Position numbers and translations under genes: made by a program. A DNA stretch of 22,650 nucleotides from a virus: the IMG/VR virus record IMGVR_UViG_3300031578_000365, positions 1-22,650 of that record, one strand, 5' to 3'. Below are positions 5,737 to 21,322 of this stretch, piece after piece. Each line of letters starts with the position of its first letter. Positions within the stretch are counted from its first letter, which is position 1. The notes under the pieces were generated by a model. It was not told the origin of the DNA. It ran no database searches and saw nothing but the letters and a program-made list of their open reading frames with translations.

Positions 5737-7086
5737 TCAGACCCTGTAGATGAACACTTCAGTGTATGACCAACCGTTGTTGCCGATGTTTATTCCCGAC
5801 GTAATCCCGGCGATGTTGGGGAGCTTCGCTTGAATCTTGATGATTGGTTGTGTGTTTACGGTGTTGACCAACACGCAGGTGAATGATGTCTTGACGTGGT
5901 GATGAGCAATCCACGTCGGTACTGGAATCGTTATTGGCGGGGTTAGCGGGAGACTCATGGTGCCTTGAGCTACAGGAACCGAAACCATGGAGTCTGCCTG
6001 GAGGATGTAGAAGTCTGGTCCGGTAACGGTACCAGCATTGACAACCTGCATCGAGATCCCAGTCCCGACAACATTTTTAAGGTAGAGGCTCAGCTCGATC
6101 TTGTAAACGCCGATGCGGTCTTTGGGGAGGTATATCTCAGCGGTGTTGTTTGCGATCAGCATCGACGAGGTAAACTCGCCCGCGTAGTTTGTCCAGTTGT
6201 TGCCTGACCCAGTAACGCCCCACCTCCACGTAAGATCCTGCCAGTTCGAGGTGCTGAGGAGATTGAAATCGGTGCCGTAGAGCTGGGCGAGGGCCATCGG
6301 TGGATGGACGGCTTTCGCTTTCCTGTTGGGAGAAATTATGGATCCCTGGTTGACCAATTCCAGACGACTGCCCTCTTGGGACGCAGTAATGGGATCAGAC
6401 ACCCCAGCGACGTCGGTCAGTTCAGCGAGCTTCTCCGCGCCGGAACCAGGAGCCTGCGTGACCCATGTCGTGCCGGTCCCAAGTGAGTTAACGCGCAGGA
6501 ACGAGTCTGGATTCCCAAAGTAGTCCTCGACATCTTCGAGGTCCTTGATGTACTCAACCCCGCTGACGGCAGGAGACTCAACAAGCTCAAGGTGCCCTCC
6601 GAGCGGGTCTGCTCCGTCCTCCACAACCTGAATGATGTACCCGTCTTTGTCTACGTAGTCCGACCCGATGTCAACGTCGTTGAGCCCGAGGAACGTCTCC
6701 GAGGAACTAGAAAGGCTCGCAATCTTGTCCCACTCTTCGTCCCCTGAGTCCCACGAGTACAGATTCAGTTCACTGCCGACGCAGCACAGCTTGTACCTGT
6801 CACCGGCCGAGGACTCAAACTCGACGCCGGCCGCGACCTCGGGGTCAGCAGAGCTAGCCAAGAACCGAAGAATCCCGGCGATAGTGCCGTCGGTGTTCAC
6901 GTACCCCAGCCCCGAATCACTAACCCCGGCGTCGTTTTGGTGCCTACCGAAGATGGGATTCACGAAAGTCACGTCCGTGTCGCACCCCAAGATGGCGGCT
7001 ATGTCTTCCTCCAGCGCCCTGTCCCAGTTGTCGGTCTGGCCGATCTTGGTGGCGTTGCTCGTCCTACTCGTACTCAGAATTCCCAT
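5737..7086 (-). CDS. Fibre-like virion protein with C1q/TNF-like C-terminus
   Basis: A 449-residue protein. Residues 1-35 (SNATKIGQTDNWDRALEED) may be the virion anchor. The middle contains phage fibre-type elements such as LAELTDVAGVS and an acidic linker region. The C-terminal 180 residues (SNWQDLTWRW to the end) alternate hydrophobic strands, including GVYKIELSLYLKNVVGTGIS and SYTEVFIYRV, a pattern common to C1q/TNF-like jelly-roll heads of trimeric fibres; the fold is inferred, not shown. A GGAGG site lies seven bases before the ATG, and the start directly abuts the adaptor stop (TAAATG). The location between adaptor and nozzle suggests that it is a tail-attached fibre or a protein at the head-tail junction. 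Confidence 0.55.
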   Translation of the reverse strand: MGILSTSRTSNATKIGQTDNWDRALEEDIAAILGCDTDVTFVNPIFGRHQNDAGVSDSGLGYVNTDGTIAGILRFLASSADPEVAAGVEFESSAGDRYKLCCVGSELNLYSWDSGDEEWDKIASLSSSSETFLGLNDVDIGSDYVDKDGYIIQVVEDGADPLGGHLELVESPAVSGVEYIKDLEDVEDYFGNPDSFLRVNSLGTGTTWVTQAPGSGAEKLAELTDVAGVSDPITASQEGSRLELVNQGSIISPNRKAKAVHPPMALAQLYGTDFNLLSTSNWQDLTWRWGVTGSGNNWTNYAGEFTSSMLIANNTAEIYLPKDRIGVYKIELSLYLKNVVGTGISMQVVNAGTVTGPDFYILQADSMVSVPVAQGTMSLPLTPPITIPVPTWIAHHHVKTSFTCVLVNTVNTQPIIKIQAKLPNIAGITSGINIGNNGWSYTEVFIYRV

Positions 7087-9009: not shown

Positions 9010-10371
9010 CTAGGCCAGCGCCGCCAGCCCTGTCCACACACTGTGGACCTCAGGGAGTGCCATCCGAAGACCGCACTCGGTCATGAAGTAGCCCTTGCGA
9101 GCGTCTTCGTCGGGAAGCTGGACGTTGTCCTTCCACGCGGTGTCCCTGCCCTTCATGTAGACGTACTCGACGTACTTGGTGTCTACAATCAGAACGTCCT
9201 GGGTCTGCACAGCCGACTCGGCGAGCAGCTTGTGGGGAACGATGTTCAACACACCGAACGGGCACCGGAGCTGGAACACCTCGAGACCGTAGGTCTGCTT
9301 TTTGGGCAGGGCCTCTGCGTTCCAGTTCCAGGTCGAGTTGTTGCGGACCATCTTGTTGAGCACGTTCAGGGCACGGTAGCCGGTGATCCCGGCCTTCTCC
9401 TTCGACCCGTAGGTGAAGGAAGATTCCATCTCGTCCTCGACAGTGTCGATGTCCACGCCAGCGCTGAAGTCCACGGACCCATGCGCCTGCTCGACAAAAT
9501 AGCGGAAGCCACCGGTCGTCCGAGAGTACTCGGAACCGTCTCCAGAGAGCACGGCGATCGAGGTGGTTTCCTCGGGCACGCCATTCAGAAGAGCCCACTC
9601 GAGCTTCATCATGTGGCGCTCAAGGCACTCGCCCTTGAACTGCGGCCAGGGCTTGTACGGCCTGGTCTTCATCTGCTCGGCGGTGCCGGTGATCTTCACC
9701 GCATCCTTGAAGATGCCGGTGTAGTTCGACACGACCGAGGCTCGCTTGGTCAGAGAGAGCGGAGACTGCGACCCCTCCTGGTAGACCGAACCGGCCCACC
9801 GGAGCACGGCCCCGGAGAGGATGGTTCCGAACACCGGAGTGGTGCTCGAAGGACCGTCCACGTTGGTTCCGCCCCAGTAGCGATACACGGTGATGGTGTC
9901 GGCATCGGTGATGGTCTTCACCACGACCAGCTCTGGGCCGGCTATGTTGGCGGTGTCGGTCGGGTTGCCAGTCTTGGACGCGGCGCTTCCGAACAGGCAG
10001 TCGTCGATGTCCTCAACTCGCAGGATGTCTCCGGGCTTGAACGAGTACGCCGGCTCAGTTCCCTCGTCGGCGTACGCGGCCCCATCGCCAGACTGGAACA
10101 GCTCGACGGTATCGACCTCAAGAAGGGCGGTACCGGCGGCAAGCTCAGTCTGCACGATGCAGGTCTGCTTGGGAAGTCTCCACTCGAAGAGCTTGAACTC
10201 GGGGTCATCGACGCTCGAGGTCGGCAGCTTCGAGAGGATATAGGTGAACGGCGAGGGGCTGTCAGGAAACAGCTCAAACGCCGCCTGTCGGTAGTTCTTC
10301 GGGCGATAGTCGGGGTGACTCCAGTTTCCGGTCCCTTCCATCCCGAAGTAGGTTGTTTCTGCGGCGGGCAT
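9010..10371 (-). CDS. Major capsid protein, SU10/DUF5309 family
   Basis: A 453-residue protein that would build the icosahedral shell. The C-terminal part carries the sequence VYMKGRDTAWKDNVQLPDED followed by ARKGYFMTECGLRM, the most recognisable block of the SU10-type/DUF5309 capsid proteins, an HK97-fold group first seen in short-tailed phages. Length (around 350-450) fits. The upstream TLSKLP-like helix (FTYILSKLPTSSVDDPEFKL) and the ERHMMKLEWALLNG segment are consistent with an N-arm and spine helix. It follows a scaffold-like gene and precedes a decoration gene. The Shine-Dalgarno GGAGG is nine bases before the ATG and forms one arm of a hairpin. I see no sign of a fused protease. Confidence 0.85.
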   Translation of the reverse strand: MPAAETTYFGMEGTGNWSHPDYRPKNYRQAAFELFPDSPSPFTYILSKLPTSSVDDPEFKLFEWRLPKQTCIVQTELAAGTALLEVDTVELFQSGDGAAYADEGTEPAYSFKPGDILRVEDIDDCLFGSAASKTGNPTDTANIAGPELVVVKTITDADTITVYRYWGGTNVDGPSSTTPVFGTILSGAVLRWAGSVYQEGSQSPLSLTKRASVVSNYTGIFKDAVKITGTAEQMKTRPYKPWPQFKGECLERHMMKLEWALLNGVPEETTSIAVLSGDGSEYSRTTGGFRYFVEQAHGSVDFSAGVDIDTVEDEMESSFTYGSKEKAGITGYRALNVLNKMVRNNSTWNWNAEALPKKQTYGLEVFQLRCPFGVLNIVPHKLLAESAVQTQDVLIVDTKYVEYVYMKGRDTAWKDNVQLPDEDARKGYFMTECGLRMALPEVHSVWTGLAALA

Positions 10372-10380
10372 TTTTCAAAT

Positions 10381-10405
10381 CCTCCAGTTTTTTTCACACT
10401 GGAGG
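10381..10405 (-). promoter_or_regulatory. Hairpin masking the capsid ribosome site
   Basis: CCTCCAGT and its exact complement ACTGGAGG flank a 9-base loop of mostly A on the transcript. The distal arm contains the capsid gene's Shine-Dalgarno GGAGG. When folded, the site would be paired, so it may regulate capsid translation, be opened by ribosomes finishing the scaffold gene (stop at 10414-10416), or stabilise a processed 5' end. Confidence 0.6.
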
Positions 10406-10413
10406 AACCAAGC

Positions 10414-11457
10414 CTAACGTCCAAAGGCAGCAGCCCGTGACTTGATCAGCTCGTCTTTCAGTTGCTCAAACTCGTTCACCGGTTCGTTGGATTTCGGGGT
10501 CCTGGCGTTACCACCGGAAGGTGCAGCCATCCTGGCGCGGGTTCGGTCTGCCGGTGCGGCAGGTGCCGTTCGCACACCAGGGTTGGCAGCGCGGTACGCG
10601 GCGTACGCGCCACTGAGGTTCTCTGGCCTGGCCAGCTCTTCCTCAATGTTCATCTTCTTCCACGGCTGTGGGTTGTTGGCGTCTTTCATCCAGTCGATGA
10701 ACGCCGTCCGCTCCCCAGGGTCTCTAAGTGACGCGTACAGATCATTGGAGGCAAGTCGCTCCATGGAGCTGTTCAGCGCCGCCATCCCTCTCTCGTACGC
10801 CGTGGTGTTCTGCTGTGTCCCCGCCCAGTCCTTCATCTCCTCGACGGCCTTGACCAGCCCCGCTCCGACCATTCGCATGGTCTCGAGCTGGTGTGCCACG
10901 TGTCCGACAAAGCGTGGGTACGCCTCAACAATGTCCGGCTCAAACGAGCCAGCATCTGCGAGCTTCTTCAGGGCAGGCACGTACGTTCGCTCTATCTCGT
11001 CGCCGAACGTGCGAGGGTCGATGGGCTCAGGCGGCTTCTCTTTTGGAGTGAGGTCCTGCCGCGTCTGCGCCAGCTCGCGCTTCAGCTCGTTGTAGAGCTT
11101 GGTGTTGTGCATTTCCTGATGGTCACGGGTGATGACCTTGTCGATCAGACCCGCTTCCTCCAACTGCGCGGCGGTTACTTTCTGACCACGCAGTGAGCCG
11201 TACACCTCGCTGTCTGGCACGGTGTACAGCCTGACCTGGGGACCTGTCTCCTCGGCCGGTGGAGTGTCTTCCTCGGCAACGACGGGCTCAGCCTCCTCGG
11301 CAGCTTCCTCCAGAGTCTTGCCGTCTTCGGTCTCTTCAACGGGTGTGACCTCGTCCGACTCCTCTGGTTCATTCTGCTGGGGCTTCTCACCGCCTACCGA
11401 GTCGAGAAACTTCTCGACCTCGTCGGCTTGATCCTGTCCAGTCTCGTCATCGGGCAT
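10414..11457 (-). CDS. Scaffolding-like head assembly protein
   Basis: A 347-residue protein. The first roughly 75 residues are highly acidic (runs of E, D, P), the middle (100-260) is predicted helical with coiled-coil-like spacing, and the C-terminus is short and basic (FEQLKDELIKSRAAAFGR), which in P22-type scaffolds binds the capsid protein. The location directly before the major capsid gene and after portal is the usual one. A GGGAGGGC ribosome site supports the start. No serine protease motif is visible, so a separate protease fused to the scaffold is unlikely. No homologous family is recognised, so the call rests on composition and position. Confidence 0.65.
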   Translation of the reverse strand: MPDDETGQDQADEVEKFLDSVGGEKPQQNEPEESDEVTPVEETEDGKTLEEAAEEAEPVVAEEDTPPAEETGPQVRLYTVPDSEVYGSLRGQKVTAAQLEEAGLIDKVITRDHQEMHNTKLYNELKRELAQTRQDLTPKEKPPEPIDPRTFGDEIERTYVPALKKLADAGSFEPDIVEAYPRFVGHVAHQLETMRMVGAGLVKAVEEMKDWAGTQQNTTAYERGMAALNSSMERLASNDLYASLRDPGERTAFIDWMKDANNPQPWKKMNIEEELARPENLSGAYAAYRAANPGVRTAPAAPADRTRARMAAPSGGNARTPKSNEPVNEFEQLKDELIKSRAAAFGR

Positions 11458-18045: not shown

Positions 18046-18097
18046 GAAGGCCTTTTTTACTAGATTCTACGTATACCCGCCATTGCCTACATCATCG

Positions 18098-18134
18098 CCC
18101 CCCGCGACGACGCACCCCCCTCCCCCGGTGCCCC
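18098..18134 (-). other. G-tract cluster, G-quadruplex candidate
   Basis: On the minus strand four G runs of four to six (positions 18134-18131, 18126-18122, 18120-18115, 18103-18098) are separated by loops of 4, 1 and 11 bases. This fits a G-quadruplex-forming pattern, though one loop is long. It lies in the non-coding gap after the small terminase gene. Confidence 0.4.
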
Positions 18135-18148
18135 GCCGCCTGGCACGC

Positions 18149-18193
18149 CGCGCCCCTGCGCTAAGTGCCTGGCAGTAGGGGGCTTAGGGCGCG
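18149..18193. repeat. Imperfect inverted repeat downstream of the terminase small gene
   Basis: CGCGCC plus CTAAG (18149-18154 and 18161-18165) pairs with CTTAG plus GGCGCG (18183-18193), leaving a 6-base bulge and a 17-base loop. It may terminate the small terminase transcript or be part of a packaging-related element. Confidence 0.4.
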
Positions 18194-18200
18194 ATGGGCA

Positions 18201-18224
18201 GGGCAGCAGGGCAGCAGGGCAGCA
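18201..18224. repeat. Three tandem copies of an 8-bp repeat
   Basis: GGGCAGCA occurs three times without gap, preceded by a partial copy (GGGCA at 18196-18200). It lies in the non-coding gap next to the small terminase gene, where iterons for terminase or replication proteins may be found. Confidence 0.7.
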
Positions 18225-18240
18225 CAGGCCCACGGCGGCC

Positions 18241-18873: not shown

Positions 18874-18906
18874 GTCGTGTCCTCCGGCCTCCAGCGTAAC
18901 AGACCG

Positions 18907-18949
18907 GTCAACCACTCATCGCCACGGTCAGACCGTGGTGATGGTTGAC
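18907..18949. promoter_or_regulatory. Imperfect dyad between divergent genes, candidate operator
   Basis: CCACGGTC and GACCGTGG form an exact 8-bp inverted repeat around one base at 18922-18938. Further outside, GTCAACCA (18907-18914) and TGGTTGAC (18942-18949) are again complementary. The outer right half overlaps the -35 box of the plus-strand promoter, so a bound protein would block it. It lies between the small terminase gene and the plus operon. Confidence 0.55.
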
Positions 18950-18973
18950 TCTATTGAAAGCCTATGGTAACCT
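18945..18973 (+). promoter_or_regulatory. Candidate plus-strand promoter
   Basis: TTGACT (18945-18950), a 17-base spacer, and TAACCT (18968-18973) preceded by TGG, an extended -10 pattern (TG-N-TAACCT). Transcription would start near 18980, placing the structured leader at the 5' end of the mRNA. The -35 lies inside the dyad at 18907-18949. Confidence 0.55.
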
Positions 18974-19006
18974 GGTTGCAGTAAGGAAAGGACGTCACGA
19001 TGGCTG

Positions 19007-19113
19007 CACACAAGGCACCACAAACAAACAACTTACCGGCCACAGTGGGCAAGGTGCCCGGTGGCCAACATCTCAACGCAGGCAAAACCAGGCTACCGCA
19101 GGTGCCTTGTGTG
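19007..19113 (+). ncRNA. Structured 5' leader, riboswitch-like
   Basis: CACACAAGGCACC (19007-19019) and its exact complement (19101-19113) close an 81-base loop. Inside, GGCCAC/GTGGCC (19038-19043 with 19061-19066) and GGGCA/TGCCC (19047-19051 with 19055-19059) form a nested hairpin. The direct repeat CGCAGG occurs at 19077 and 19097. The element starts about 27 bases after the predicted transcription start and ends 21 bases before the next ATG, whose AAAGGAGG follows the helix. I cannot match it to a named riboswitch. It could instead encode the N-terminus of a longer protein starting at 19000. Confidence 0.5.
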
Positions 19114-19134
19114 GAACCATCAAAGGAGGACATC

Positions 19135-19314
19135 ATGATCGACGTGTACGAGGTTGCGAGTCCGTCAATCCCTGACCTGGACCTGGAGGAGCAGATCGCC
19201 GCCGGGTGCAACGACTGGATAGCCGAAGTCGAAGGCGGCGCGGTGTTCTTTGGCCGGACCGAGGCCGAAGCCAGGGAGCAGGCCGAGCGCTGGGAGCTGG
19301 GCCGCGAAGCCTGA
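19135..19314 (+). CDS. Small acidic protein, 59 aa
   Basis: A 59-residue acidic protein (MIDVYEVASPSIPDLDLEEQ, then GGAVFFGRTEAEAREQAERW), probably alpha/beta with a C-terminal helix. AAAGGAGG lies before the ATG, the strongest site in the operon. The same frame is open from an ATG at 19000 with AAAGGAC upstream, which would give 104 residues; I prefer the short form because that extra part is occupied by a strong RNA helix starting five bases after the upstream ATG. Not recognised. First gene of the plus operon, so early expression is likely. Confidence 0.6.
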   Translation: MIDVYEVASPSIPDLDLEEQIAAGCNDWIAEVEGGAVFFGRTEAEAREQAERWELGREA

Positions 19315-19735: not shown

Positions 19736-19748
19736 GAGGTCAGCGCGG

Positions 19749-19791
19749 GAGGCCGGGACCACACCGGCCTCACTCGCTGCCCTTCAGGGCA
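19749..19791 (+). promoter_or_regulatory. Two adjacent hairpins before the ParB-like gene
   Basis: GAGGCCGG/CCGGCCTC (19749-19756 with 19764-19771) is an exact 8-bp stem with a 7-base loop. TGCCC/GGGCA (19778-19782 with 19787-19791) is a second stem with a TTCA loop. They end about 7 bases before the AAGGAGG of the next gene. No U tract follows, so a translational or mRNA-stability role is more likely than termination. Confidence 0.5.
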
Positions 19792-19807
19792 AGCCAAGGA
19801 GGTCAAG

Positions 19808-20518
19808 ATGAAGATCGAAGAGCTGGTGCTGCTTCCCGTGCGGACGTTCCGCACACAGGCCACGGACCCGGCGACCGTCGCGGAGTATGCGGCGCTCATG
19901 GCGGCCGGGACCACCTTTCCTCCGCTGACCGTCGCCGAGGTCGGCAAGTCCAAGACACAGGTGTTGATCGGCGGCGCGCACAGGCTCGCGGCGGCCGTCA
20001 AGGCGGGGCTGAAGGACATCGAGGTCACCACGGTCGCTTGCAAGAGTGCGGCCGACGCTGAGGTGGCCACGTTCGCCGACAACGCCAGCCACGGGTTGAG
20101 CCTCACGCCGGAGGACAAGCGAAAGGCGATCCTCACCATCATCCAACTCAAGCCGTTCGCCAAGCTGTCGAACGCCGCCATCGCCAAGCGCCTGGGCGTG
20201 TCCGACATGACCGTCAAGCGCTACCGAGATGCGGTCGGCACCGTCAGTCCGAAGGCCAAGATGAGCGGCCACAAGTCCAAGATCGAGCCCAAGGTGGACA
20301 AGGGCGGCAAGGTGCAAGCGCAGACCAGCGACCCGGTGGCCTGGAAGATCGCGGGGGCGAAGATGGGTGGCGGGGCGGACAAGGTCGCTGCGGCCATCGT
20401 CGCGAAGATCACCGAGGGTGTGAGCACGAAGCAGGCCGACACGTGGCGTGAGCGGGTGCAGTACGTGTACGAGGTCTGCGAGGCCCTGGAGCGCTGGATC
20501 AGCGCTCAGAGCGTCTGA
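19808..20518 (+). CDS. ParB-like nuclease/HTH protein
   Basis: A 236-residue protein. Residues 1-80 form a ParB/Srx-type N-terminal fold with GGAHRLAAA at 55-63, the loop equivalent to the G-x-R-R/H-R box of ParB, where CTP or DNA is bound. Residues 92-142 (NASHGLSLTPEDKRKAILTI then a HTH around LSNAAIAKRLGVSDMTVKRY) carry a helix-turn-helix like that of ParB and Noc. The C-terminal roughly 90 residues are Lys/Ala-rich and unknown. Phage ParB-like proteins act as DNA-binding regulators, partition proteins or nucleases; the sequence here does not decide. AAGGAGG supports the start. A candidate binder of the GTCAAC palindromes, by inference only. Confidence 0.8.
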   Translation: MKIEELVLLPVRTFRTQATDPATVAEYAALMAAGTTFPPLTVAEVGKSKTQVLIGGAHRLAAAVKAGLKDIEVTTVACKSAADAEVATFADNASHGLSLTPEDKRKAILTIIQLKPFAKLSNAAIAKRLGVSDMTVKRYRDAVGTVSPKAKMSGHKSKIEPKVDKGGKVQAQTSDPVAWKIAGAKMGGGADKVAAAIVAKITEGVSTKQADTWRERVQYVYEVCEALERWISAQSV

Positions 20519-21288: not shown

Positions 21289-21294
21289 AAAACA

Positions 21295-21322
21295 GGCCGC
21301 CAGGGCAACCTGGCGGCCTTTT
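21295..21322 (+). terminator. Rho-independent terminator, bidirectional
   Basis: GGCCGCCAGG and its exact complement enclose the GNRA-type loop GCAA (21295-21318), followed on the plus strand by TTTT. The other strand also ends in TGTTTT. It separates the converging plus operon and the minus-strand nuclease genes and probably stops both. Confidence 0.9.

Follow-up and report, generated by a model that had tools for sequence, protein, structure and literature searches.

In phage lambda, the hairpin of the N leader, a long hairpin that follows an early promoter and precedes the ribosome site of the first gene, is a target of RNase III, and the leader described in this work resembles it in layout only. 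The early mRNA of phage T7 is cut by RNase III at five sites (PMC4858673). The T7-like sites, such as R1.1, are imperfect hairpins that are located in untranslated gaps of operons, directly before ribosome sites, and they are not tied to particular genes, features that are shared by the element considered here. However, the loop of our element is 41–81 nt long and holds a nested hairpin, and the likeness drawn here is one of layout. The manA and wcaG RNAs of cyanophages are cis-regulatory leaders that were identified by comparative genomics (PMC2864571). Similar to leaders of the latter type, the structure reported here is a 5′ structure upstream of phage genes that is supported by covariation, but it has no Rfam match and no conserved loop, it was found in three lineages only and the gene that follows it varies. 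The DNA that was analysed, which will be referred to as the window, is 22,650 nucleotides long. Within it, the region 18999–19121 forms, as judged from comparison with related phages, a structured mRNA element of the small plus-strand operon, comprised of an imperfect hairpin of about 21–22 bp, whose big loop contains a smaller hairpin, directly 5′ of a Shine-Dalgarno sequence. We consider with moderate confidence that its most likely role is to have the mRNA processed and/or to insulate the ribosome site.

In this environmental virus record of 22.65 kb, the minus strand carries the terminase, portal, and structural genes, and the plus strand carries a short operon of six genes, namely those for products of 59 aa and 128 aa, the ParB-like gene and three small ones. 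The features of the leader and of the genes following it are listed below.

18945–18973, plus strand: promoter of the plus operon (TTGACT at 18945–18950, 17 nt, TAACCT at 18968–18973)
18983–18992, plus strand: ribosome-site-like sequence AAGGAAAGGA 5′ of the ATG at 19000, as read from the sequence
18999–19019, plus strand: 5′ arm of the closing helix, with its exact core at 19007–19019 and including the ATG at 19000–19002
19000–19134, plus strand: open extension of 45 codons that joins the 59-aa gene in frame and is probably noncoding
19038–19066, plus strand: nested hairpin in the loop, present in the MFE and centroid folds
19101–19121, plus strand: 3′ arm of the closing helix, with its exact core at 19101–19113
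19124–19129, plus strand: Shine-Dalgarno sequence AGGAGG of the 59-aa gene, directly 3′ of the helix, as read from the sequence
19135–19314, plus strand: 59-aa gene, coding-like (codon score 0.455), for which searches for families and homologues gave no match
19808–20518, plus strand: ParB-like gene (PHROG 1033, E 9.2e-14), 54–55% identical to its counterparts in the related phages L002 and L005

The promoter of the plus operon in the window was under the threshold of a generic promoter scan. A transcription start at about 18980 is nevertheless a reasonable prediction, because the counterpart in L002 (TTGACT-17-TACTGT) has the same TTGACT-17 spacing and in both cases it is followed by GGTTGCA, as read from the sequence. 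The divergent promoter is kept between the window and L002 as TTGACT, 17 nt, TAnnnT, and GGTTGCA. Additionally, a near-perfect palindrome, CATCGCCACGGTcagACCGTGGTGATG, is present at 18918–18944, just 5′ of the −35 element of the plus operon, and it also flanks TerS on its 5′ side. This palindrome is a candidate for an operator-like element or a TerS leader hairpin, and inspection by eye of the corresponding place in L002 and L005 showed no counterpart.

The two exact 13-base complements of the leader, CACACAAGGCACC at 19007–19019 and GGTGCCTTGTGTG at 19101–19113, are separated by 81 nt, and direct reading and folding agree with a first-pass annotation of the sequence in regard to these arms, the loop between them and the hairpin nested in it. 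A repeat finder lengthens the helix to 18999–19019 with 19101–19121, where 19 of 21 positions are paired (90% complementary); the ATG at 19000 therefore lies within the 5′ arm, instead of the helix beginning five bases past it as had been annotated. The nested hairpin occupies 19038–19066, and one more stem, at about 19077–19098, is weak. The 107-nt element has a minimum free energy of −46.4 kcal/mol (z −4.5), and none of 200 shuffles was equally stable; for the fold of 18980–19150 the z value against shuffles was −3.6. In the fold model, the ATG at 19000 has an unpaired probability of 0.00, and the predicted opening energy is 18.4 kcal/mol for its ribosome region versus 12.9 kcal/mol at the 59-aa start, with certain other starts in the phage having an opening cost as high as that at 19000. 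These values agree with the annotated view that the helix would hinder initiation at 19000. The ribosome site of the 59-aa gene is open only in part in the predicted fold. The overall picture of a structured leader that follows a promoter and ends before a strong ribosome site has thus been supported.

Taken alone, over 22,650 bases, the pairing in the leader is only moderately unusual. One perfect 13-mer pair with a loop of no more than 100 was observed in the window, versus 0.05 expected from shuffles, and stems of equal score with loops of up to 150 were present somewhere in 25 of 60 shuffles of the whole window. When the 3′ arm was held fixed and the upstream leader was shuffled 1000 times, an equally good partner never arose. 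The repeat is significant because of its place between a promoter and a ribosome site, and because of the comparison across lineages that is described below. Within the window, the 107-nt segments with the most stable folds lie, on both strands, in 18078–18230, where the interval that separates TerS from the next minus-strand gene is GC-rich and repetitive.

Among the matches listed in searches with TerL and portal, the only close relatives were the group of L002, L003, and L004, whose TerL is 79% identical to that of the window, and L005 (83%). A genome scan gave a single remote match, the leader DNA found no match when searched against phages, and protein searches gave no relatives of the 104-aa and 128-aa proteins. 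The leaders of L002 and L004 are identical, and L003 stops short of the leader; the comparison is between three independent lineages, viz. the window, L002 and L005. The order of TerS, TerL, portal, and ParB is kept in these relatives, and the gene 3′ of the helix is the 59-aa gene in the window versus a 91–94-aa gene in L002 and L005. Unequal loop lengths made MAFFT misalign the leaders and the pairing was tested arm by arm. The helices of the relatives are as follows.

L002, 6309–6288 with 6211–6190, minus strand: helix of 22 nt, 20 of 22 paired, shortly 5′ of the ribosome site
L005, 6281–6260 with 6218–6197, minus strand: helix of 22 nt, 20 of 22 paired, shortly 5′ of the ribosome site

In each of the three lineages the helix ends a short distance 5′ of a ribosome site, and this site belongs to the same operon. 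The arms of each genome pair with scores of 41 (window), 45 (L002), and 45 (L005), which were matched in none of 1000 shuffles, whereas arms swapped between genomes gave scores of 16–24, the level of shuffles. In a single register of 22 positions, 90.9% of the cells of L002 and L005 were paired, with one common mismatch and five pairs changed on both sides, a two-sequence pair count for which the shuffle control is modest (8–15 of 500); after sliding by 1–3 columns the pairing was 32–41%. On either side of the changed arm, L002 and L005 have nearly identical flanks, with GTCGGGCAACGG and GCAGGCCACAWCGGCCTAGC in common. The inner helix is CACAAG-GCACC/GGTGC-CTTGTG in the window versus CGCAAGCGCACC/GGTGCGCTTGTG in L002, where one C:G pair was lost from both arms and a G.U pair has become A-U. 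Conservation of an RNA structure would be expected to leave this pattern. The loops (81 nt in the window, 76 nt in L002, and 41 nt in L005) and their nested hairpins are not conserved, and they have no common core of the kind that forms the aptamer of a riboswitch. The L005 helix is intercistronic, 3′ of a 98-aa gene, and the structure is thus not bound to the 5′ end of a transcript. Because own arms pair and foreign arms do not, and because five pairs have changed on both sides between L002 and L005, the comparison indicates that selection acts on the pairing and that the leader helix 18999–19121 is a genuine RNA structure. It provides a case in which compensatory change alone suffices to confirm a structured RNA, with only three lineages of poorly known environmental phages to compare.

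The helix would be expected to act in cis on the mRNA whatever gene follows. It may constitute a double-stranded processing site of the RNase III type, at which the operon mRNA would be trimmed just 5′ of the ribosome site, and/or an insulator by which upstream RNA would be kept from folding over this site, and it would also bury a spurious upstream start at 19000. The structure that characterizes RNase III sites of the T7 type, an imperfect helix of about two turns in the gap before a gene, is seen in the window (19/21) and in L002 and L005 (20/22 in each). Involvement of RNase III may be proposed from the length and position of the helix only. The intercistronic location of the L005 helix and the variation in the downstream gene make a generic role in the mRNA more likely than that of a riboswitch specific to one gene. 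If the hairpins of this operon are processing or insulating elements, they provide a compact natural example of the tuning of phage genes inside one operon.

An alternative that we consider rather unlikely is a regulated switch, in which the leader would sense a ligand, a protein or an antisense RNA and open or close the ribosome site, possibly choosing between the starts at 19000 and 19135. The leader is indeed long and lies immediately 3′ of a promoter, ribosome sites are present at both starts with the ATG at 19000 buried in the fold model, GCAAGGTGCC offers the 3′ arm a second, weaker partner (score 22), and the outer helix of L002 and L005 overlaps an alternative hairpin, AGGCC-ACAWC-GGCCT. 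However, besides the lack of conservation of the loop, searches with 4227 Rfam models gave no match at gathering score in the window and none up to E=1 in 18900–19200, in accordance with the first-pass annotation, which recognized no known riboswitch. The same search of the relatives (gathering score and E ≤ 1) gave nothing useful, and the mir matches on L005 were rejected as generic long-hairpin matches far under threshold. The sensing of a ligand, suggested in that annotation, found no evidence, and the downstream genes vary by lineage. The choice it envisaged between a 104-aa and a 59-aa product is possible but unsupported, as the long frame of the window does not look like a coding one and neither L002 nor L005 has its peptide; burial of the ATG at 19000 would, according to the fold model, disfavor that start, which does not in itself speak for the use of such a switch. 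If the leader is a switch, it would represent a new RNA class.

It is very unlikely indeed that translation from 19000 produces a real 104-aa protein and that the pairing is its by-product. The frame is open and in frame with the 59-aa gene, the observation from which a coding explanation had earlier been drawn, but this openness says little, because a second frame is likewise open through the leader. The codon score of the extension is −0.01 versus a gene mean of 0.34, below 97% of the in-frame coding windows of this phage, and the neighboring frames score only a little lower (−0.08 and −0.24). The in-frame extension of L002 is open and more coding-like (0.14), but its peptide is unlike that of the window, and in L005 a TAG stop is present in the frame of the gene shortly 5′ of its start. 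Because of the poor codon score, the unconserved peptide and this stop, the pairing is unlikely to be explained by a protein. Compensatory changes in the arms, which had been named beforehand as the outcome favoring RNA over coding, were found across the lineages; the refuting outcome, a frame kept by synonymous changes with the pairing lost, was reversed, the pairing being kept and the peptide not. In L002, a 144-aa frame at 6321–5890 (minus strand) has a coding-like codon score and an ATG at the predicted transcription start; it contains CARCHADASPRDSSGNGALVAGHNGLAHRRC, a zinc-ribbon-like CxxC...HxxC pattern, and a family search with it gave no match. An inverted repeat acting at the level of DNA, as an operator, a replication origin or the remnant of a mobile element, would fit the presence nearby of divergent promoters and of a ParB-like gene, but it is very unlikely, as the arm sequences differ by lineage and therefore offer no common protein-binding sequence, and the repeat is always sited shortly 5′ of a ribosome site. 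That the repeat arose by chance and has no function is extremely improbable: stems of equal score do occur in shuffled windows, but this accounts neither for the location in a leader nor for the recurrence of the arrangement, with compensatory changes, in three lineages.

It is also conceivable, though quite doubtful, that with this leader a new class of phage RNAs has been seen for the first time, a switch in which a fast-diverging but always self-complementary helix would control entry to the ParB-like operon, perhaps recognizing a phage protein or an antisense RNA by shape and not by sequence.

The same operon contains a second family of hairpins, the members of which are as follows.

19738–19802, plus strand: two-hairpin intergenic element in the gap before the ParB-like gene, with a covarying stem 1 and GCTGCCCTTCAGGGCAAGC as stem 2, ending at the Shine-Dalgarno sequence
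L004, 4816–4879 and 5826–5886, minus strand: two-hairpin copies
L005, 4302–4362, 5239–5301, 5825–5889, and 6530–6584, minus strand: two-hairpin copies

These elements are also found in other gaps of the operon, between a stop codon and a Shine-Dalgarno sequence. A covariance model (R1) based upon six elements from the window, L002 and L005 has a consensus of 16 pairs, 8 of which are changed on both sides. It scores 71.5 bits (E 3.8e-18) on 19738–19802, which is one of the six copies used for building it, and it found one extra L005 copy (L033 1022–1076, E 9e-5). No convincing copies were detected by R1 outside the operon, apart from weak echoes that the same copies gave on their complementary strand, and a scan for the pattern of the intergenic element returned the same contigs alone. 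Membership of the leader in this family was rejected, R1 giving just 8.4 bits at 19111–19129 with filters off; because the model does not match it, the leader is, as judged from these searches, a separate structure of the same operon. One small operon hence carries two distinct kinds of hairpins before its ribosome sites.

Two other hairpins were observed in the window. One of these, CCTCCAGTG...CTGGAGG at 10372–10414 (minus strand), adjoins the start of the gene at 10371, which is probably the major capsid gene, and a similar hairpin is present in L005 before 17021. The other is a strong GC hairpin, AACAGGCCGCCAGG/CCTGGCGGCC, at 21291–21322, where the plus operon and minus-strand genes converge, and it is possibly a terminator.
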